From a virus, in the IMG/VR virus record IMGVR_UViG_3300042564_001036, positions 1 to 29,985 of that record: 29,985 nucleotides of DNA. One strand, 5' to 3'. The position numbers and the translations under genes are program-made. Below the pieces are notes generated by a model that saw only the letters and a program-made list of their open reading frames with translations, was not told the DNA's origin and did not search any database. Position 1 is the stretch's first letter, and each line of letters opens with the position of its first letter. Of the stretch, positions 3,777 through 12,355 are shown piece by piece.

Positions 3777-3998
3777 TTAAAAAGGAAGATCAAAAGCCTC
3801 TAAATGCAACACAGGAGTCTTGTAGTCTGTACCAAACCTAGATAAGTAACCAAATGCAAGTATTCTATTTGCTTCTCTTGTCTTTAGCCAAATTCCTTGC
3901 GTGTAGGTTTTATCATAGTCACCAGGATTTACCTCCATGTACTTATCCCAAAATACCTCAAATGGGATTTCTGATACTTCGTCTAGTGCTTCAATCAT
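3777..3998 (-). CDS. Small replication-module protein ending DLPF, 73 aa
   Basis: The core EIPFEVFWDKYMEVNPGDY, then W-LKTREANRILAFGYLSRF, follows the pattern F-W-x2-Y ... W-x-L-x5-R-x2-A-x3-Y seen at the ends of many phage replication accessory proteins in Bacteroidota and Gram-positive phages; exact function unknown. The last residues, LEAFDLPF, resemble an SSB-type tip. It overlaps the primase-helicase stop by four bases (ATGA), which supports a role beside that enzyme. Confidence 0.5.
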   Translation of the reverse strand: MIEALDEVSEIPFEVFWDKYMEVNPGDYDKTYTQGIWLKTREANRILAFGYLSRFGTDYKTPVLHLEAFDLPF

Positions 3999-6202
3999 TT
4001 CTTTAAGTGTTTATAAATAGTGGTTCTACTTACATTTAGTAATTCTGCTAATTCAGAGCGGTTAAAATCAGGGATGGTTTTATTAATCATCTCGATTTTC
4101 TTTTCTATTGACTCATTTTTCATCGACCTAATTATTTCACTAAGCTCATTAGATTCCAAGCTACTTACCTTAATCTTCTTAGACATAGCAATGAAGTAGT
4201 TGCTTAACTTCTCTGCCTTCAGCAATGATTCCTTAGTAACAAAGTCAAAGTCCTTTCCTGTCTCAAATGACCAAAGCGTATTAATTAACAGAGCAAATCT
4301 AGGTACATAAGCCTTTTGCTTACTCAACATCGATTTCACATATTCCGAGATGTCATCAGAGTTCTGCAAGTCTGTGATATTGTTAAATATCCTCTCCCAC
4401 TCAATATCTGATTGGCTATCAAATCTAATGATTCGACTCTCAATCTCACCAAACTTATTGTACTGCAAAACCTGATTTCTAACAAGGTTATAGAATTGAC
4501 TTATGTAAGCCTCGTACCAATCTAATATTTCTTGGTCAATCGAGTTCTTGTTATAATGCTCAATTTCCTTGTCTGGATAACTTACAAGCAATCGATCTAA
4601 GAATCCATTGTCTTTGTTTTCCATAGTGGATATCTGCGAGAATATTCCAGGCTGAATTCCTCCTAGTACAGGAATCAATGGACTTGCTACAAAGCTACTT
4701 TTCGCTGACTTTCTAGTAAGAATCGCTGCTTGGTTTGACCAGCAAGACAGCCAAAACTCGAGATCAGAACCAGGCTTGTACTTATTCATGTCCTTGATCC
4801 ACCCGTTCAACTCATCCTTAAATACTGCAATCCCTACTTGATTTTCCTCGTGCAAATCCGCCAAGGCTTCTACGGTAATATCATTTACAATCAACTGCTT
4901 TCTCACTGGCTCCCTAACTTCCTCAACATCCTTTTTTTCCTTTGCAGTCAATCGCTCGTATTCCTTGTACTTTTTATACTCGTTCTGAAAGTGCTTAATC
5001 TCAAAGCTATTCTTCTTAGCAATCGGGAATATGATTGCGTTTATACTAGGCGTCTTTCCTAGACCCGCCTTTCCTATCAAGCCAATCCAAATGTTGCAAG
5101 ATTCTCTCCATCCCGTTTTTACCTCTACCTTGCAAGCGTTACCAATGCAAAGAGACAGAAGCCAAAGTAAGGAAGAACCCATATAATCAATAGAATGATT
5201 AAGTGTTTTCTGATTTAACAGAATATAACTCTGTATTGACTCTGGAAACACATCAATTGGAAATATTAAATCCTCCTTTGGAACATCAATTTTTTCTATC
5301 TCTACTTTTCGAATCTTGCGCTCACCATATCCTTCTTTATACAGTTCTTTAGCAGCAATTGAAAAATCACCATTAAAGTATTTGTAGGCATAAATACTGA
5401 AAGGAGTTAAAGGTGTCTCATGAGGGTAAATCGTGGCCGTAGTGAAGAGATAACACAATCCAGTGTCCTTGTATATAAATCCATGCAAGGCGTCCTTAGA
5501 ATTAGTTTTTCTTATTACTATGCGGTCGGTCAAATGCTTTACTGCGGTAAACTCATTTGAAATCAAGTCCAATACTTTGTTTCTCTGATTGTAATCTTCC
5601 CAAGGAGTCAATCCGCTATACTCTGTATTTTCAACCTTGACTTCCACCTTGGCTTCATCGTAGTGAAAATATCGGCATAAGCTAAACAGAATATCTCTTT
5701 CTTCCTCGGTAATCTCTTGGATTTGCTCGTAGGACATTTCAGATACCTGATTATCGTAAATGTAAATGTATCCTCCTGTTCCCCTAGTTTCAATCAAGGC
5801 TTGAGAATGGCCCTTTAGTGTCGCAAGCTTTCTGTTTCCCTCTACCTTAGAGCATCTATAAATAATATGATATCCTGAGTTTATAGTTTTATAAATGACA
5901 AACTTTCTCTCAAAGTCATCTATGTGATCAGAAATAAAAGATACGAACTCACTCCAGAACTTTTTTCCTTCTTGAATTGTAGGAAATACCTTTAAGTCTA
6001 CATCAATACATTCAACGTCATAAAATCCTGTTATAATTCCATAACCTTTGGTCTTGTATTCTAGCTTCTCTAATTCGGATTTTTCTATCTTTTTTGTCTG
6101 GTACTCTTTCCATAAAATCAAAGGCTTCTTACCCTCCGATATTGGCATTACACTGAATCCTGAGTTCAGTAAGTTAATTGCTCTTCCTAGTGTTACGTTC
6201 AT
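3995..6202 (-). CDS. Bifunctional primase-polymerase / DUF3987 helicase
   Basis: A 735-residue replication enzyme. Residues 1-180 form a PrimPol (AEP) domain with the metal-binding DVD at 67-69 (ECIDVDLK), SGYHIIYR (109-116) and ETRGTGGYIY (138-147). Residues about 320-650 form a DUF3987 helicase-like ATPase with Walker A GKAGLGKT (377-384) and a Walker B-like IAVFKDELNGW (458-468). The last 23 residues (NRSELAELLNVSRTTIYKHL) form a helix-turn-helix, so the protein may bind DNA at the origin. It should prime and unwind phage DNA. It begins the promoter-proximal part of a leftward transcription unit: a palindrome, a G9 tract and an iteron-like array lie immediately upstream. Confidence 0.85.
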   Translation of the reverse strand: MNVTLGRAINLLNSGFSVMPISEGKKPLILWKEYQTKKIEKSELEKLEYKTKGYGIITGFYDVECIDVDLKVFPTIQEGKKFWSEFVSFISDHIDDFERKFVIYKTINSGYHIIYRCSKVEGNRKLATLKGHSQALIETRGTGGYIYIYDNQVSEMSYEQIQEITEEERDILFSLCRYFHYDEAKVEVKVENTEYSGLTPWEDYNQRNKVLDLISNEFTAVKHLTDRIVIRKTNSKDALHGFIYKDTGLCYLFTTATIYPHETPLTPFSIYAYKYFNGDFSIAAKELYKEGYGERKIRKVEIEKIDVPKEDLIFPIDVFPESIQSYILLNQKTLNHSIDYMGSSLLWLLSLCIGNACKVEVKTGWRESCNIWIGLIGKAGLGKTPSINAIIFPIAKKNSFEIKHFQNEYKKYKEYERLTAKEKKDVEEVREPVRKQLIVNDITVEALADLHEENQVGIAVFKDELNGWIKDMNKYKPGSDLEFWLSCWSNQAAILTRKSAKSSFVASPLIPVLGGIQPGIFSQISTMENKDNGFLDRLLVSYPDKEIEHYNKNSIDQEILDWYEAYISQFYNLVRNQVLQYNKFGEIESRIIRFDSQSDIEWERIFNNITDLQNSDDISEYVKSMLSKQKAYVPRFALLINTLWSFETGKDFDFVTKESLLKAEKLSNYFIAMSKKIKVSSLESNELSEIIRSMKNESIEKKIEMINKTIPDFNRSELAELLNVSRTTIYKHLKK

Positions 6203-6212
6203 TTTTGTGTTT

Positions 6213-6226
6213 TACAAATGTTTGAA
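6213..6226. promoter_or_regulatory. Palindromic operator-like site (TACAAATGTTTGAA)
   Basis: One mismatch from the palindrome TACAAANNTTTGTA, which occurs three times in the divergent region at 11717-12004. It lies 11 bases upstream of the primase-helicase ATG, within the leader. Confidence 0.5.
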
Positions 6227-6232
6227 AAAAAA

Positions 6233-6246
6233 GGGGGGGGGTAGGG
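6233..6246. repeat. G9-TA-GGG tract, copy 2
   Basis: Eight As, then nine Gs, TA and GGG on the plus strand; identical in core to the tract at 3760. It lies in the leader of the primase-helicase gene, between the iteron array and the ATG. Confidence 0.7.
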
Positions 6247-6262
6247 TCATTTTTAGCAAAAA

Positions 6263-6533
6263 AGTGTACACAAGTTTACACTTAGTTTACACCTAGTGTA
6301 AACCCCCTAAAAGTGCCAATACGTTTAAATTAAGGCGATTTTAGGCTGTTTTTTGACCTAGGTTTACAAGTTTACACTTTTTTTTAGAATGTATTTTTTT
6401 TGACTAGTGAAAATTTATTTTTTTTCATTTTTGTCAAAAAGTGTTCAAAGTGTTCACTTATTGCGATTGGAGCCAGTGGAGGCCGATTTTGGTTTACACT
6501 TTAGTGTACACTTAGTGTAAACTAGTGTACACC
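6263..6533. repeat. Helically phased AGTGTACACT-like site clusters; candidate origin or operator
   Basis: Most of the 319-base gap at 6203-6521 consists of this. Cluster A has four sites starting at 6263 (AGTGTACAC), 6273 (AGTTTACACT), 6284 (AGTTTACACC) and 6295 (AGTGTAAAC). Cluster B has four at 6491 (GGTTTACACT), 6503 (AGTGTACACT), 6514 (AGTGTAAAC) and 6524 (AGTGTACACC). Extra copies lie at 6369 (AGTTTACACT), 6440 and 6449 (AGTGTTCACT). Spacing inside clusters is 10-12 bp, one helical turn, so proteins would line up on one face. The middle is AT-rich with T8-T9 runs. Position between replication genes suggests an origin or a multi-site operator; cluster B runs into the end of the HTH gene. 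Confidence 0.7.
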
Positions 6534-6968
6534 TTCCTTCTTTGCTTTTCTGACCCAATGTGAGACTTTATTGTATTCTAAATTCAATTCGTTGGCAATG
6601 TCGCAAGTCCTTCTTTTTTCCTCTACCATACGCTCTATTTTTTTAACAACATTTATCGTTAAGGGCTTAATTCGTCTTTGTTCTGTGAGTTTTATAATCT
6701 CACATAAATGATGGTATTTTACACCAGTCATTGCCATAATTTCTTTATAAGTAAAACCTTTCTTATAAAAATCAATAACTTGATCCGCATACTTCATGTG
6801 AGAGCAAGTATTTTTAGCTCTTTCATTTGTTAGCAAATATTCCTTGTAGATAAAATTATTTACTAAGTGTTTACTGATATTTAGAAAAGTGGCAATATTC
6901 TTATTCATTACTTTAAGTTTATAAAGCCTAACTATTTCGTCTTTCTGTTCTTGTGTTAATGATGTCAT
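6522..6968 (-). CDS. Three-HTH DNA-binding protein; candidate binder of the adjacent array
   Basis: A 148-residue basic protein built from three successive helix-turn-helix-like units: residues 5-42 (EIVRLYKLKVMNKNIATFLN), 60-95 (VIDFYKKGFTYKEIMAMTGV) and 103-143 (RTCDIANELNLEYNKVSHWV). Tandem HTHs resemble resolvase/Hin-type and sigma-factor-like DNA-binding domains without a catalytic domain. It could bind the repeated AGTGTACACT sites that begin at its own 3' end and extend toward the primase-helicase gene, acting as replication initiator or autoregulator; this is inference from position. Its start overlaps the stop of the upstream gene. Confidence 0.6.
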   Translation of the reverse strand: MTSLTQEQKDEIVRLYKLKVMNKNIATFLNISKHLVNNFIYKEYLLTNERAKNTCSHMKYADQVIDFYKKGFTYKEIMAMTGVKYHHLCEIIKLTEQRRIKPLTINVVKKIERMVEEKRRTCDIANELNLEYNKVSHWVRKAKKEGVH

Positions 6969-7324
6969 AGTTTTTCTTCCTCTGCTTTAATTATTTCCTC
7001 TACCTGGTTAAGACACTTGTGAAATACATCTCCGCCAAGGTCAATTGCATTATGAAGTTTCTCAAACAAAGTTACAAATTCGTGAAACTGCTTAATTGTT
7101 GCTTCTCCTCCATCGTAATTTTCTAAGAATCTAAATGCTTCGGTTGACTTTCGCTTTAGCGCGTTAATCATGTTTTTATGCTTAGTTTTTAAATCATTGT
7201 CAAAAGCCTTTAGCATTTTTACATCCTCGTAATAATCGAGCATGATCTCCTGGAGAGCCAAATAAACCAAATACTTTTGAGTAGCTCTAAAATTAAGTTC
7301 TAAAATTGCTTCTTCTCGTGTCAT
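6965..7324 (-). CDS. Hypothetical helical protein, 119 aa
   Basis: Almost wholly alpha-helical, with probable coiled-coil character (LQEIMLDYYEDVKMLKAF, then TKHKNMINALKRKSTEAFRF) and a Glu/Lys C-terminal helix. No motif or family is recognised. Four-base ATGA overlaps on both sides place it firmly in the recombination/replication operon. Confidence 0.55.
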   Translation of the reverse strand: MTREEAILELNFRATQKYLVYLALQEIMLDYYEDVKMLKAFDNDLKTKHKNMINALKRKSTEAFRFLENYDGGEATIKQFHEFVTLFEKLHNAIDLGGDVFHKCLNQVEEIIKAEEEKL

Positions 7325-7527
7325 TTCTTTCCGTAGGTTTCTTCGTAGTAATTATGTCCGCTCTCATAAGTCTTAACTGCATAGAACCAAGCACCTTCTC
7401 TATGGGCCTCTGCAATCTGATCTCTTTCTTTGTACTTAGCTATTTCTAGTATCTGCCTTAAAGAATTTGCATCTAGCGGCTTCGAGATTATTTCCTCGTA
7501 CAACCATTCTACTGCTGTCTGTTTCAT
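7321..7527 (-). CDS. Small conserved phage protein (MKQTAVEWL family), 68 aa
   Basis: The opening MKQTAVEWLYEEI and the later KERDQIAEAHREGAW are the hallmark of a very common small protein of Bacteroidota phages and prophages. It is helical and its function is unknown. It overlaps both neighbours by four bases, between the recombination nuclease and the 119-aa protein. Confidence 0.65.
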   Translation of the reverse strand: MKQTAVEWLYEEIISKPLDANSLRQILEIAKYKERDQIAEAHREGAWFYAVKTYESGHNYYEETYGKK

Positions 7528-8123
7528 ATAGCCATTCCTTTTAAATATTCTCTACATTCCAAAACTTTAGCTTTTGCTAATTCAATCACTTGCGGATCAT
7601 AATCTATGTCAAATTCCTTGATTCTGTACTTATTTTCCACGTGCGAGTAGCTTACTGGTTCCTCGTAAGTCAAGAATTCTGGAGTGTCCTGAAGCGTGTA
7701 AACCAATTTAGCCTTTTTTAAGCCCGTTAGATACATATAAACCTGAAGTTGGTAGAAGTATCCATTGTCTGGCTGATCGTCGAACAGAGGGAAAGTAAAG
7801 CAGTCCCACGACGTTTTAAAGTCGTAAACTATTCCGTCATGGAAACAATCTGGAGTTCCTGTAAAGAAATCATCTTCAAAATGCTCAAGATTCTTAATCA
7901 TGAAGTCCTTTTCCATAGCTACCGAGTAAAACTCGATAGCCTGATCTTCTAAAGCCAATCCCTTTTGGATATACTTAGATTTAATCTGCTTTTTTAGTCC
8001 GTAAATCTGCTCTTTGTACCAATCTTCCAAGTAGCTTTTTGTCGTCTGTGACAAAGTTTCTGTTTTACTACGTGCGTTAGTCATTAAATGACCTAGTGCG
8101 CTAGCTCTGCATTTAAAATTCAT
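7524..8123 (-). CDS. YqaJ/lambda-exonuclease-type recombination nuclease
   Basis: A 199-residue PD-(D/E)xK nuclease. KGLALEDQAIEFY (residues 54-66, Glu59) is the conserved first helix, GTPD (89-92) supplies the metal-binding Asp92, IVYDFKTS (98-105) gives D101-x-K103, and GYFYQLQVYMYLTG (121-134) carries the family's conserved Gln. These match lambda Exo/YqaJ/RecB-like 5'-3' exonucleases, which resect dsDNA ends so that an annealing protein can act. The next gene in the operon encodes an ERF annealing protein, giving a complete two-component recombination system. Confidence 0.8.
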   Translation of the reverse strand: MNFKCRASALGHLMTNARSKTETLSQTTKSYLEDWYKEQIYGLKKQIKSKYIQKGLALEDQAIEFYSVAMEKDFMIKNLEHFEDDFFTGTPDCFHDGIVYDFKTSWDCFTFPLFDDQPDNGYFYQLQVYMYLTGLKKAKLVYTLQDTPEFLTYEEPVSYSHVENKYRIKEFDIDYDPQVIELAKAKVLECREYLKGMAI

Positions 8124-8653
8124 GATAATAGAAGTTTTTCGTTTTGTGCTGTTAAAATATAAACTGACTTAATTTGCTCCATGGAAACTTTTCCATTGGC
8201 CAAAGAATCTTTTGCGCCGTTCCATTTTACGTGAGAAGGATTTAATTCCTCTTTTTTACCGCCGTGATCGTTTGTAGAATCTGGGTCTTTTGTATCGTCT
8301 ATGAGGAAAAGACCGTTAAGCGCGTACTTTCGAGCATAACTCGATGAGCTTCCGTACGACTGCGCCACATCCATACCCTTGCGGTTGATGTCAATCCCTG
8401 CCTGGGCAGTAACTGCTCTGCCTTCAGTTCTCCCTTCTTTGTCTACCTGTATTGCCGCCGTAGCTTCGATAAACACAAGACCGCCAACCTCTTTTACCTC
8501 GTCTTCAATAGTCAAAGTACATTCGTACTTCAATAGCAATGGCTTTACCGCTTCTAGGATATCCTCTACGGATCGGTACTTATACTTTCCGAACGCGTTA
8601 AACTGGTTCTTTGGAGCTTTTAGCTCCGATTGAATTAAAATTAGTTCTTTCAT
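8120..8653 (-). CDS. erf: ERF-family single-strand annealing protein
   Basis: Residues 10-125 have the ERF layout: NQFNAFGKYKYRSVEDIL, LEAVKPLLLKYECTLTIEDEV, the beta segment GGLVFIEATAAIQV, and the signature GSSSSYARKYALNGLFLIDD followed by TKDPDS. ERF proteins coat ssDNA and anneal complementary strands during phage recombination and genome circularisation or concatemer repair. The 50-residue tail is polar and probably flexible. Its gene overlaps that of the exonuclease by four bases. The leader upstream contains the recurring ACACTAGACACA/AACACAAAAA motif. Confidence 0.9.
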   Translation of the reverse strand: MKELILIQSELKAPKNQFNAFGKYKYRSVEDILEAVKPLLLKYECTLTIEDEVKEVGGLVFIEATAAIQVDKEGRTEGRAVTAQAGIDINRKGMDVAQSYGSSSSYARKYALNGLFLIDDTKDPDSTNDHGGKKEELNPSHVKWNGAKDSLANGKVSMEQIKSVYILTAQNEKLLLS

Positions 8654-8676: not shown

Positions 8677-8850
8677 TTACTTAGAAAAAAAGGGGGGGGG
8701 TGGGTATTGTTTTAGCGTCTTAATCTCAGCGTATGGGAAGTTTAATTCGTCCCAGTACAATTCAAATGTTTTCATTATCTCGAATTTTTCACTATCTGGT
8801 AATTTACCGTAGTTTTCAAGAATCCATTGGTCAATTATTTCCTCTACCAT
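8677..8850 (-). CDS. Small hypothetical protein, 57 aa, with a G9-encoded Pro run
   Basis: The frame starts MVEEIIDQWILENYGKLPDS and continues as an acidic helical protein to KQYPPPPFFSK. The four prolines come directly from the G9-T-GGG tract, so any change in tract length would change its C-terminus. It overlaps the upstream HTH gene by 20 bases. I accept it because it fills an otherwise empty gap and has ordinary protein composition; no family recognised. Confidence 0.45.
   Translation of the reverse strand: MVEEIIDQWILENYGKLPDSEKFEIMKTFELYWDELNFPYAEIKTLKQYPPPPFFSK
8692..8704. repeat. G9-T-GGG tract, copy 3
   Basis: Seven As, nine Gs, T and GGG on the plus strand. It overlaps the 3' end of the 57-aa gene and precedes the erf leader. 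It is the third tract of exactly nine Gs upstream of a replication or recombination gene. Confidence 0.7.
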
Positions 8851-9025
8851 TTTTTATCCATTCAGTTGATACAAATACTACCCATTGATTTCCTAGCTTT
8901 CTAGGAGGATGAACCCACTCAGGTGGATTTACTCCAGAGCGAATAATTTGGTGAACTCTGGTTGATTTTTCGCTAAAGCCACGCAATACTCCGTATTCTG
9001 TGGCTGTCATCATTTCGTAAAGCAT
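8831..9025 (-). CDS. Excisionase-like HTH protein, 64 aa
   Basis: After the first residues the sequence MTATEYGVLRGFSEKSTRVH, then QIIRSG...PPEWVHPPRKLGNQWVVFVSTEWI, has the layout of a MerR/Xis-type winged HTH: a recognition helix, a short wing and a closing strand ending in W-I. It is probably a small DNA-binding regulator or directionality factor; no integrase is visible here, so regulator is safer. An alternative start at 9013 would overlap the upstream TGA as ATGA, which matches the style of this operon and may be the real one. Confidence 0.6.
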   Translation of the reverse strand: MLYEMMTATEYGVLRGFSEKSTRVHQIIRSGVNPPEWVHPPRKLGNQWVVFVSTEWIKNGRGNN

Positions 9026-9249
9026 AATCTGATTTCTTTTTCTAATTGTTCAACAATAAATGGTTCAAGGATTGAGCAAAGAACTCGATAATGATCGGTA
9101 AACCGATTATTTAAAGCGTCGTAAAGCTCTAAGTTTAAAGATTTTCCATTACCGAAGTAAAGGTCTAAGACAATTCCTTCGTTTTCGAAGGATTCAAGCT
9201 CAAGGCTAAAGCCTGGCTTTTCAAGAATAAAGTGATAATCTGTTAACAT
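9010..9249 (-). CDS. Hypothetical early protein, 79 aa
   Basis: Unrecognised, with a strongly beta-like first half (DYHFILEKPGFSLELESFEN, then GIVLDLYFGNGKSLNLELYD) and a helical second half (LCSILEPFIVEQLEKEIRL). I place the start at the ATG at 9249, preceded by the A-rich leader typical of this region, rather than at an ATG 36 bases upstream that would lie within the leader and operator-like sequence. It is the first gene of the leftward recombination/replication transcription unit. Confidence 0.5.
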   Translation of the reverse strand: MLTDYHFILEKPGFSLELESFENEGIVLDLYFGNGKSLNLELYDALNNRFTDHYRVLCSILEPFIVEQLEKEIRLCFTK

Positions 9250-9280
9250 TTTTTGTGTGTGTTTTAGTGTGATGTAAATG

Positions 9281-9294
9281 TACAAACTTCTGTA
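9281..9294. promoter_or_regulatory. Operator-like palindrome (TACAAACTTCTGTA)
   Basis: Imperfect match to TACAAANNTTTGTA (one mismatch in the right arm). It lies about 30 bases upstream of the 9249 start codon and marks the beginning of the leftward transcription unit. Confidence 0.4.
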
Positions 9295-9481
9295 TATTAA
9301 TTGCTAGTGAATTGTAAAATTTATTTTTGTTTTCCACTAGCGGTAAGTTTTTTGTTTAAGTGGTTTTAATTTCCACTAGTGGTTTTAATTTCCACTACCG
9401 ATTTTAATTTCCACTACCGATTTTAATTTCCACTACCGATTTTTCCCAGCTGTTTTCCACTAGGTATTTTTCAGGTCGCAA

Positions 9482-9495
9482 TTTGCGGCCGCAAA
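9482..9495. other. Perfect 14-bp GC-rich palindrome inside the 19-bp array
   Basis: TTTGCGGCCGCAAA, a perfect palindrome that interrupts the repeat array between its first and second blocks. It is followed at once by three copies of TTTAGACATT. It may be a separate protein-binding site or a small cruciform-forming element. Confidence 0.45.
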
Positions 9496-9497
9496 AT

Positions 9498-9538
9498 TTT
9501 AGACATTTGGCCAAAGGTTTAGACATTTTTTAGACATT
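9498..9538. repeat. Three copies of TTTAGACATT
   Basis: Exact copies start at 9498, 9518 and 9529, spaced 20 and 11 bp, about two helical turns and one helical turn. They form a second, different repeat family nested within the 19-bp array. Confidence 0.6.
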
Positions 9539-9970
9539 ACTTTTTAATTTCCACTAGGTATTTTGTTTTCCACTAGATCGCAACGCGGGTTCTGTTTTCG
9601 TCTACTCATTTTGTTTTCGTCTACTTGTTTGGGCTTTTACTTTGGTTCTGTTTTCGTCTACCAATTAGGCGCGCTAATTTTTGCGGCGATCTACTCGGTT
9701 TTAAATTTTGTAACTAGTTAGAACTAGTTCTAATTTGGTTTATTCGTTTTGTTTTATACTACGGATTTAGCCCGCTGTTTTTTACTACTGCTTTGGATTT
9801 CGTCCACTGGTTTAGATTTCCACTACCTTTGGATTTCGTCCACTACTTTTGTTTTATACTACGTTCGTGCGCTTGGTTTATCAGGCTATTTTTAGGCCCT
9901 TAGCGCGACGATATTTTTTTACTATAGGTAATGTATGCGAGAAAATTTAAACGTCTTAAAACGCCTAATT

Positions 9971-10159
9971 TTACGCCGTTATTTTTTGTAGGTTGTATGC
10001 AATGCAATCTAAACCGTATTCGATCGAATAGCCGATTTTAAATAAGTCGTTTTCAAGGCGTATTAAATTAGTGTAGTTTTGATCTTTGGCCATATACAGC
10101 GCCAAAGTAGTTCGCAATTCAGCGGGCCAAAGTTCAGGGTATTCGAATAAGTCCTCCAT
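9971..10159 (-). CDS. Small conserved phage/plasmid protein, 62 aa
   Basis: The pattern LFEYPELWPAELRTTL ... LIRLENDLFKIGYSIEYGLD ... YNLQKI is that of a small family common in Bacteroidota mobile elements (PE-L-P-x2-L at the start, IGY-x2-EYGLD-x3-YNL-x-KI at the end). It is helical, with a short closing hairpin; function unknown. It lies just downstream (in the leftward sense) of other small orphan genes and upstream of the 19-bp repeat region. Confidence 0.6.
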   Translation of the reverse strand: MEDLFEYPELWPAELRTTLALYMAKDQNYTNLIRLENDLFKIGYSIEYGLDCIAYNLQKITA

Positions 10160-10162
10160 TTT

Positions 10163-10375
10163 TTAAATATTGTTTTTTGTGCAAAAGTTATCAAAATACG
10201 CGTTCTCATTTGCCATAATATGGGCAAAGGTTTGGCCCGCTTGTTTTCTATCTTTGTAAACGGTTGAATTTTCGCCGTATGCTTTGCCGTCGAAATATAT
10301 GTTTTCGCCTTTCTTAATAATTTTGCCCGTTTCAGCGCACGCGCTTTGAAATCTAGCGGTTATAAATCGTCCCAT
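10163..10375 (-). CDS. Small conserved protein of mobile elements, 70 aa
   Basis: The sequence ITARFQSACAETGKIIKKGE, then IYFDGKAYGENSTVYKD, resembles a family of very small beta-rich proteins from phages and conjugative elements in which C-x-ETGK-x-IKKGE is conserved. It may be a reduced zinc-ribbon or PARP-like finger, but only one such Cys is present, so metal binding is doubtful. It is separated by three bases from the following gene. Confidence 0.55.
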   Translation of the reverse strand: MGRFITARFQSACAETGKIIKKGENIYFDGKAYGENSTVYKDRKQAGQTFAHIMANENAYFDNFCTKNNI

Positions 10376-10388
10376 TTTTGTATATTTT

Positions 10389-10604
10389 TTATTTAATTGG
10401 AAAATAATTTTGAGTACTTCCTAGAAAATTTTGCCAATCGCTCCCACTGTTAAATAAACTATCGTTAAATTCATTTTCTGATAATTTGTAGGTCCTATAT
10501 GTTGCAACGTATGTTTTAATAGTAAAAACCTTTTTGCTAAAATTAGGCCGAACTAAAAGTATACGGCCTGAATTAGTAACTAATTTTTTAAATTTTGATC
10601 TCAT
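10389..10604 (-). CDS. Hypothetical protein, 71 aa
   Basis: A basic beta-rich start (MRSKFKKLVTNSGRILLVRP), a second strand pair (KKVFTIKTYVATYRTYKLSE) and an Asn/Ser-rich end. No family is recognised. It has an A-rich leader with ACTAACAAAATG-type context and lies in a run of four small leftward genes. Confidence 0.5.
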   Translation of the reverse strand: MRSKFKKLVTNSGRILLVRPNFSKKVFTIKTYVATYRTYKLSENEFNDSLFNSGSDWQNFLGSTQNYFPIK

Positions 10605-10608
10605 TTTG

Positions 10609-10803
10609 TTAGTGTTTTAAGTTTTCAAGTAATTTTTTTACTAGTTTTTTTATTTCGTTTATACTATTTGCTTCAAAATATTCATTGAAAAAAAAGCATG
10701 AAAATTTACCGTTATAATCTAAATCTATGTATAATTCGTAGCACATAGAATTGAAACTTACTATATAGTGTAACGGCATTACCTTTTTGAATGTAGTTTT
10801 CAT
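10609..10803 (-). CDS. Hypothetical protein, 64 aa
   Basis: A beta-rich first two-thirds (HYIVSFNSMCYELYIDLDYN, then GKFSCFFFNEYFEA) and a C-terminal Lys-rich helix (SINEIKKLVKKLLENLKH). The strand-strand-helix layout resembles many small phage proteins, none of which I can name. The leader reads ACACTCAACAAAATG, as for its neighbours. Confidence 0.5.
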   Translation of the reverse strand: MKTTFKKVMPLHYIVSFNSMCYELYIDLDYNGKFSCFFFNEYFEANSINEIKKLVKKLLENLKH

Positions 10804-10821
10804 TTTGTTGAGTGTTTTTTA

Positions 10822-11445
10822 TTAGTGAATGATTAGGCCTATTTTGTGGTTTTCCGTGTGCCACTTTGTCGCCAAAATGTCAAGGTAAGACGCGTCCGAA
10901 TATCCGCTTGACTGCATTTCGTCTACAGAATAGAAAATTTTGGAATGCCTTTCGGTTTCTTGGTTAATTAGTTCGTCGTTTTTACTACCAAGGGAAAAAA
11001 TTAAGTCTACATTATCGGGTAAATTTATACCACGGATAAAACTGTGGCTTTTGGTATAAGCGTAAAAACGGACGGACGGATTTAGTCGCGCAATTTCCAA
11101 CCACTTTGCGAAGTATGCAGGGCTGTAAAAATCACCTGAATCATGAATTCGGACGTATACTTGCTTACCTTTTTTAACCTTGGTTAATTCGTTCGTGATC
11201 AATTCAACAAAATTTTCTTCCTTGCTAGCCTCATAACGTCGAGTAAGCGCGCGTTCTACATTGCCAAAACGATACATGCCGCGTTTTGCATAACATAGCT
11301 TTAAACAGCTTCCAGCAAAAGGGCACGTGATTTTTCCGCTTTTTTTATCATTACCTGCAGGGATCGAAAAGTTAAAAATTTTAACGCCGAACTCTTTAGC
11401 TGTTTTCTGTAGTTTGCTGTTGCCGTTACCTAGTAAAGTATCCAT
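10822..11445 (-). CDS. Gp88-family phage protein (Cys-cluster)
   Basis: A 207-residue protein that I match to the 'gene product 88' family of phages and plasmids. It has the cluster C41-x5-C47-x3-C51 in ITCPFAGSCLKLCYAKRG, the conserved block QVYVRIHDSGDFYSPAY (95-111) and the TKWH-type closing segment (about 193-196). The three-Cys motif and the HDSGDF block hint at a metal or Fe-S site on a TIM-barrel-like fold, but the family has no established activity to my knowledge. It is the second multi-gene segment from the switch region and is the largest protein of the small-gene block. Confidence 0.7.
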   Translation of the reverse strand: MDTLLGNGNSKLQKTAKEFGVKIFNFSIPAGNDKKSGKITCPFAGSCLKLCYAKRGMYRFGNVERALTRRYEASKEENFVELITNELTKVKKGKQVYVRIHDSGDFYSPAYFAKWLEIARLNPSVRFYAYTKSHSFIRGINLPDNVDLIFSLGSKNDELINQETERHSKIFYSVDEMQSSGYSDASYLDILATKWHTENHKIGLIIH

Positions 11446-11716: not shown

Positions 11717-11762
11717 GTCGTTTAGTGTTTTAGTGTTTGTGTTTCTAATTGTTAAGTAAATT

Positions 11763-11776
11763 TACAAAGGTTTGTA
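11763..11776. promoter_or_regulatory. Operator-like palindrome (TACAAAGGTTTGTA)
   Basis: Perfect 6+6 palindrome with a 2-base centre, extended by T and A to TTACAAAGGTTTGTAA. It lies at the start of the leader of the tiny membrane-protein genes. Confidence 0.55.
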
Positions 11777-11883
11777 ATTAAAAGCAAGTGTTTAAATTTA
11801 TTTCTTTGCTTTTTTTTAATCTTTTTTTACTTTTTTTTCGGTTTGGACTTATTCCGTTCCGTTGTATTGTTATGTAAATATAA

Positions 11884-11897
11884 TACAAGCCTTTGTA
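11884..11897. promoter_or_regulatory. Operator-like palindrome (TACAAGCCTTTGTA)
   Basis: One mismatch from TACAAANNTTTGTA. Like the 11763 copy, it is followed by AT and then GCAAGTGTTT. A further half-site (GTTTGTAATA) follows at about 11908. Confidence 0.5.
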
Positions 11898-11985
11898 ATG
11901 TGCAAGTGTTTGTAATAATATTTTTAATTTTTTTTTATTTATTTTCAATTACCTTTAGGACTGAATAAACAGTTTATTTCAGTTT

Positions 11986-11999
11986 TACAAATATTTGTA
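11986..11999. promoter_or_regulatory. Operator-like palindrome (TACAAATATTTGTA)
   Basis: A perfect palindrome five bases upstream of the terminase small-subunit ATG; its right arm overlaps an AATATTTG word close to the Bacteroidota -7 box. A protein bound here would block the start of the rightward late genes. Confidence 0.6.
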
Positions 12000-12004
12000 G
12001 GAAC

Positions 12005-12355
12005 ATGGGACAAAATGGAGGCGCAAGGATAGGTGCAGGAAGGAAGCCAAAAATTGAAGAAATAAAGATCATTGAACAAATGGACGCTATTTGCATACCC
12101 GATAAAATTTGGGAGGCCTTGTTAATGAAGTGCGCGCAAGGCGATACGGCCGCTTTAAAACTTTGGCTTTCGTATCGGTTTGGATTACCAAAGCAACAAA
12201 TCGACGTAACGAGTAACGGTGAAAAAATAGCGCCTCCGATCCAATGGATTGGCCGTAATGCGGCGATTGAAACGGCAAAGGTACTACAGGACGACGACGA
12301 CGAACAAAGCGAACAGCAGGCTTTAATTCCGCTGGAAGACAAAAAGATATTTTAA
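12005..12355 (+). CDS. terS: Terminase small subunit
   Basis: A 116-residue protein starting MGQNGGARIGAGRKPK, the usual opening of phage small terminases of the GGARxGAGRKPK type. It continues with a helical DNA-binding and oligomerisation part (IWEALLMKCAQGDTAALKLW, a typical amphipathic helix), and ends in an acidic stretch DDDDEQSEQQ that is likely to contact the large subunit. It recognises the packaging site and stimulates the TerL motor. It is the first gene of the rightward late block, five bases after a palindromic operator-like site, and its stop shares a base with the start of TerL. Confidence 0.85.
   Translation: MGQNGGARIGAGRKPKIEEIKIIEQMDAICIPDKIWEALLMKCAQGDTAALKLWLSYRFGLPKQQIDVTSNGEKIAPPIQWIGRNAAIETAKVLQDDDDEQSEQQALIPLEDKKIF

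Follow-up and report, generated by a model that had tools for sequence, protein, structure and literature searches.

The early region of the window

The window is the whole of a viral contig of 29,985 bases, IMGVR_UViG_3300042564_001036, and is labelled WIN in comparisons with its relatives. Its early genes occupy the minus strand and are read leftward, encoding an ERF annealing protein, an exonuclease, a triple helix-turn-helix (HTH) protein and a Prim-Pol/DUF3987 primase-helicase, and the structural genes run rightward, starting at 12,005. Two small early genes (9971-10159 and 9010-9249) bound a non-coding gap that holds an array of short repeats. The phage family that carries this array is uncultured, and its hosts are probably Bacteroidota. 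No match to Phage_integrase (PF00589) was found in 12 records of array phages, nor to HTH_3 in 10, several of the records being incomplete. The genes and regions around the array are as follows.

10822-11445: GP88 family gene (PF17338, E 3.5e-45), upstream of the array and kept in many relatives
9010-9249, minus strand: p91, first gene of the operon, 79 amino acids counted from the conserved ATG, no family assigned
8831-9025, minus strand: p64, second gene of the operon, a predicted winged-helix DNA-binding protein of 64 amino acids and candidate binder of the array
8120-8653, minus strand: ERF-type single-strand annealing protein, in the p91-p64 operon
7524-8123, minus strand: exonuclease (YqaJ-like, PHROG 5715), in the p91-p64 operon
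6522-6968, minus strand: HTH148, three tandem HTH domains, weakly Cbp1-like, at the end of the p91-p64 operon; a rival candidate binder
6203-6521, minus strand: region B, a second repeat region, between HTH148 and the primase
3995-6202, minus strand: primase-polymerase/helicase with Prim-Pol, DUF3987 and a C-terminal HTH

Anatomy and conservation of the repeat array

A sequence-only reading of this DNA had claimed a large non-coding array of 19-bp units at the locus, and the array is confirmed as real. The sequence TTTCCACTA has nine copies in the 29,985-base record, all on the plus strand at 9331-9825 and none on the other strand. In 9286-9970 the autocorrelation is highest at a lag of 19 (z 6.3; 300 dinucleotide shuffles), Tandem Repeats Finder reports 4.2 copies of 19 bp at 9364-9443 together with a degenerate period of 36 bp at 9776-9863, and no credible gene or open reading frame lies inside the array. 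The expected enrichment over shuffled sequence was also found: the motif T[AG]GNNNAAA has 19 minus-strand and no plus-strand matches in 9286-9970, whereas 2000 first-order shuffles of that segment average 1.9 and never exceed 8, and the rest of the window has a background of 1.35 per kb per strand. A coding repeat is ruled out by a period that is not a multiple of three and by the want of a credible reading frame, and a CRISPR array by units that are not identical to one another and have no unique spacers of uniform length between them.

On the minus strand, along which early transcription runs, each unit has the form T[AG]G-NNN-AAA(A)-C/T-AAAA and then some four free bases; across 101 dereplicated loci its conserved core measures about 15 bp. 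T[AG]G and AAA on either side are invariant and the central triplet is exchangeable, the main triplets being TGG, TGT, ACG, TAT and AGT in the family and TGG, ACG, TAT and TAA in the window. The variation once described as four sub-families belongs to one motif with a variable central triplet. The elements in and beside the array are listed here, units being placed by the position of their T.

9331-9861, minus strand (the early-gene strand): main array, 17 T[AG]GNNNAAA units
9339, 9378, 9397, 9416, 9435, 9462, 9556, 9575 and 9825, minus strand: TGG-type units
9604, 9623, 9660, 9806 and 9842, minus strand: ACG-type units
9761 and 9861, minus strand: TAT-type units
9787, minus strand: TAA-type unit
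about 9916-9924, minus strand: distal TAGTAAAAA unit, 63 bp past the last TAT unit, a gap of 63 bp being seen in relatives too
9482-9538: TTTGCGGCCGCAAA palindrome (the GC palindrome, about 9482-9495) and three TTTAGACATT copies
9711-9730: paired palindrome TAACTAGTTA/GAACTAGTTC, of which relatives have AACCGGTT-type versions
9275-9306, minus strand: putative early promoter, with a -33-like TAGC at 9303-9306 and a -7-like TACATTTA at 9275-9282

The pitch of 19 bp claimed earlier is present in the window, but not throughout, since spacings of 17, 26, 27, 29, 37, 39, 94 and 101 bp occur as well. Across 484 distinct segments the neighbouring units stand 19 (115 cases), 29 (89), 39 (67), 27 (54) or 17 (16) bp apart, and the spacings form two series with 10-bp steps, 19/29/39 and 17/27/37, a regularity that suggests proteins bound on similar faces of the DNA. 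The pitch falls to a minimum of 12-13 bp in some tandem runs, and the binder's footprint is limited accordingly. The triplets are ordered in window-like phages, with TGG beside the promoter, ACG in the middle and TAT, AGT or TAA at the far end.

The GC palindrome and the three TTTAGACATT copies noticed earlier are indeed present. Modules with AATGTCTAAA or a NotI-like palindrome occur in the arrays of eight to nine of 90 relatives, and paired palindromes in 48 of the 90. Both kinds of module (AATGTCTAAA copies with a TTGCGGCCGCAA palindrome, and paired AACYRGTT palindromes) differ in position from one relative's array to another, as if they had been swapped in as blocks.

In the window, the proximal unit lies 33 bp upstream of the -33-like element. 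Most relatives have TTGC where the window has TAGC. The distance from the T of the nearest unit down to the TTGC could be measured in 71 cases; it is 33 bp in 53 of them and within 30-35 bp in all, with a TAnnTTNG element following about 24 bp after the TTGC. In ten further cases, mostly of a second clade, the promoter elements read by eye are nearer to the unit, at about 27 bp. We take these elements to be the Bacteroidota -33/-7 promoter type (consensus TTG...TAnnTTTG), and a scan for sigma-70 promoters accordingly found none at the start of p91, as expected of a non-sigma-70 consensus. Given the conserved distance between unit and promoter, the array ends directly upstream of the promoter of the early operon.

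An initial scan recovered 80 loci with an ERF relative; the gene order round the array is kept. Ninety dereplicated arrays have 700 bp or more of sequence on their upstream side, and every one lies at the corresponding place, with 5-24 units (median 9), so that absence of the array from close relatives, which would have spoken against the sequence-only reading, was not observed. When 2.9 million viral contigs were searched for three units spaced at 19 bp, 47 stretches came up, and 43 of these have genes of the array phage family; the array was thus found in one phage family only, and the earlier impression that it is unusual was sound. The unit type varies by lineage, phages like L001 having mainly TGT and window-like phages TGG, ACG and TAT. 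Two of the relatives, G003 (34.2 kb) and G004 (35.8 kb), have end repeats of 123 and 127 bp respectively, consistent with complete, circularly assembled genomes. A distant-mode DNA search of 50,697 phage records gave chance-level matches only, p64 was not found in cultured phages, and the primase was not found in bacterial genomes by the patterns used. In one contig (L232) there are two arrays in opposite orientation and early genes on both strands; it is probably a chimaeric assembly.

Candidate binders of the array

The array occurs jointly with p64 and p91. L306, a distant relative whose early region is complete and whose primase is 69% identical to that of the window, lacks the array, p64 and p91 alike; it retains the primase and an HTH148-like gene (hmmsearch E 2.7e-5), with different repeats, GGTAACA/TGTTACC, between the two. 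Another (L303), cut off upstream, has HTH148-like reading frames and GTGTAAAC repeats before its primase. These patterns indicate that repeats of the B type track HTH148 and the primase and that the array tracks p91 and p64, a linkage which, coming from few lineages and neighbouring elements, is support rather than proof.

The fold predicted for p64 is beta-helix-helix-beta-beta-helix (pLDDT 83). Among the structures that VIA-align ranks best for it are BldC-DNA (Z 4.7) and lambda Xis-DNA (Z 4.4, rmsd 2.3 over 46 residues), and Foldseek and VIA-align together group it with BldC, lambda Xis and the DNA-binding proteins of P2 and Mu, and more weakly with RepE. Small winged-helix DNA-binding proteins, of a kind that acts on direct repeats, make up most of the top structural rows, although the Z-scores are low, below 5, and initiators of the RepE type match too. 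The recognition helix, EKSTRVHQIIRSG, is identical across all aligned relatives. The composition of the array correlates with p64 when other early proteins are controlled (partial r 0.44), and the partial r drops to 0.04 once terL and p91 serve as the controls; since terL, the terminase and an implausible binder, correlates equally with the array, covariation is uninformative on the identity of the binder. On the predicted structure and the linkage, p64 is the most likely binder of the array, with about an even chance of being the right one.

Region B enters the argument through a further alternative, that the array consists of replication iterons and forms the phage origin or part of it, or else a site for titrating an initiator, acting with region B in the style of P4 ori plus crr; the binder would then be the primase-helicase or another initiator. 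This is the main rival of the operator reading, though we consider it unlikely. Tandem 19-bp repeats in one orientation fit the 17-22 bp expected of iterons, and Foldseek ties p64, weakly, to the winged helices of RepE. Region B itself (6203-6521) has two arms of about 44 bp, built of 11-bp GTGTACAC/AGTGTAAAC units, flanking an AT-rich core, and one array-like unit lies within it, CTAAAGTGTAAACCAAAATCGG (T-equivalent at 6501). Leaving the array itself aside, the counterpart of CTAAAGTGTAAACCAAAATCGG, beside the primase gene, gives the strongest match to the array matrix in four of five genomes, and in the window it is a lesser match; a binder common to array and region B, as in P4 ori/crr, is possible. 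Furthermore, the GC3 skew of genes with the same direction flips sign across the array in WIN and G004 (9971-11445 against 3995-8653 in the window). Against this, the sign change is slight or missing in G001, G002 and G003, and the skew in G001 and G002 follows the direction of transcription. The array has no DnaA box, the sole TTWTNCACA of the window lying outside it at 10178, although DnaA is not needed by all iteron origins. Region B is strongly conserved in the family, more strictly than the array, and adjoins the primase, and L306 has a primase and B-type repeats without any array. Judged by its sequence and position, region B is likely to be an origin or an operator of the primase, and it is a better candidate for the origin than the array. 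The iteron origins of mini-F and lambda and the P4 ori/crr pair resemble the array in one-orientation repeats of about 17-22 bp, a primase-helicase nearby and a second site with a related unit; they differ from it in that the array lacks a DnaA box, has an early promoter attached and triplets ordered by position, and has a better origin candidate elsewhere. The proposal that the array is a composite origin or a multi-protein regulatory hub therefore holds better in its second part, given the promoter at a conserved distance and the extra modules, than in its first, given the missing DnaA box and the stronger claim of region B. A partition site, also suggested, does not find support: neither a ParA-type (PF13614) nor a ParB_N (PF02195) family occurs in 9 records, in a search confined to the ParABS type of system.

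We think it quite improbable that HTH148, from the end of the same operon, binds the array as an operator or chromatin platform in the manner of Cbp1 on CRISPR repeats. Its structure model has three trihelical domains, Cbp1 (2lvs) stands at Foldseek rank 3 (E 0.45), and the asymmetric 15-bp core could be read by three HTHs; a triple-HTH protein and asymmetric direct repeats are likewise what Cbp1 and its CRISPR arrays offer (PMC10883916). The match to NCBIfam Cbp1 is weak, however (E 1.4e-4), and at 21.8 bits HTH148 stays below the cut-off of 140 for that family; the array is not a CRISPR. A pitch of 12-13 bp is too tight for one triple-HTH footprint per unit, HTH148-like genes and B-type repeats remain in L306, where the array is lacking, and the unit type does not track HTH148 (partial r -0.38).

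A host protein (a nucleoid protein or regulator, or the RNA polymerase alpha subunit on the A-tracts) or a role in packaging or at the RNA level is very improbable: the promoter-adjacent A-tract AAAACAAAA resembles an UP element and the array RNA folds slightly better than shuffles, a weak signal (z -2.2, 20 shuffles), but the array is confined to one phage family in the contig search, the 10-bp spacing steps favour binding at the level of DNA, Rfam gave no match for the array RNA, and terS, for packaging, lies about 2 kb away.

Proposed function of the array and its resemblance to known systems

We read the array, at a shade under an even chance, as an operator with many sites that serves the early recombination/replication operon and carries a nucleoprotein complex built by p64; the identity of the binder, its cooperativity and the direction of regulation are what we infer. 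Each unit would be bound by a p64 monomer: the invariant T[AG]G (C[CT]A on the other strand) would be contacted by the recognition helix and the A-tract by the wing, the three bases between being read loosely. One orientation and steps of 10 bp would bring the protomers onto similar helix faces, and we propose a cooperative nucleoprotein complex for that reason. It would end about 33 bp upstream of the promoter and switch the p91-p64-ERF-exonuclease operon, a case of autoregulation, and it might perhaps block read-through from the early genes upstream. Occupancy would be graded by the position-specific triplets, TGG close to the promoter, ACG midway and TAT/AGT/TAA distally.

The minimum pitch of 12-13 bp suits a small protein such as p64, and the joint absence of array, p64 and p91 from L306 supports this reading, as does the presence of the motif at another early gene: in L201 (10939-11010, minus strand) five units at an exact 13-bp pitch, mostly T[AG]GTATAAATC, stand directly 5' of a second small early gene and thus place the motif at a second promoter. 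Further points weigh against p64 as the binder. At a pitch of 19-39 bp neighbours would touch only through extra protomers on non-specific DNA, the joint absence comes from one lineage with a complete early region and concerns adjacent elements, and the A-tract at +11 to +14 is left unexplained by one small winged helix.

Among known systems, BldC of Streptomyces, a small MerR-like winged-helix regulator, offers a similar layout. It reads AATTxxxxC, with its wing in the AT-rich minor groove, its helix on a C/G pair four bases from the AT-rich element and variation tolerated between (PMC5859096), and the array unit on the other strand is TTT-NNN-C, nearly the same arrangement. Both are winged helices of similar length (64 residues in p64 and 68 in BldC; PMC5859096), and in both cases direct repeats in one orientation and variable number, with an AT-rich element and a fixed C/G, lie at promoters. 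BldC differs in having 2-4 repeats at a pitch of about 9 bp (PMC5859096), against 5-24 units at 19/29/39 bp here; no sequence match with p64 was found, and the binding of p64 is our prediction. The Xis, Cox and Apl proteins, phage recombination directionality factors and regulators, are likewise small phage-encoded winged helices that act on direct repeats at early promoters, and Apl of phage 186 has 7 operators and represses both promoters (PMC7498355). Their pitch is 10-11 bp, against 19/29/39 and 17/27/37 (minimum 12-13) in the array, and they belong to temperate phages with an integrase, unlike the array phages, which gave no Phage_integrase match. The array shares with these systems an element-encoded small winged-helix protein (a model with low Z), a single orientation and a promoter, but membership of the class is ruled out by the pitch, its sites not being 9-11 bp apart. 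We liken the array to a direct-repeat operator with an unusual number of sites, pitch and triplet layout. The operators and stoperators of mycobacteriophage L5 resemble it in being asymmetric monomer sites oriented with transcription, with a consensus that varies among related phages (PMC9283540, PMC6550527). They are scattered over the genome and L5 requires an immunity repressor in a temperate phage, whereas the array is one cluster per genome with few matrix matches outside it, and on this clustering L5-type stoperators are ruled out.

A more ambitious version, which we hold to be distinctly unlikely, is that array, p91 and p64 form a self-contained cassette gained as a unit by one phage lineage, that p64 forms an unusually long, wide-pitched filament on up to 24 sites, and that the interchangeable triplets, ordered by distance from the promoter, encode graded affinities by which early transcription is tuned and related phages are perhaps kept out.

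Read as a p64 operator, the array supplies a concrete regulatory element and a candidate binder for a widespread, uncultured phage family, and would add one of few early-gene control systems for probable Bacteroidota phages. Its natural variants (5-24 sites, five main triplets and quantised spacing) offer a test bed for how cooperative binding to direct repeats depends on number, spacing and sequence, and its promoter is possibly a compact, tunable promoter for Bacteroidota. Elsewhere in the window a TACAAA-NN-TTTGTA palindrome, perhaps a second operator, is repeated at about 11755-11780, 11880-11895, 11985-12000 and 6207-6220, in the leaders or promoter regions of several genes.
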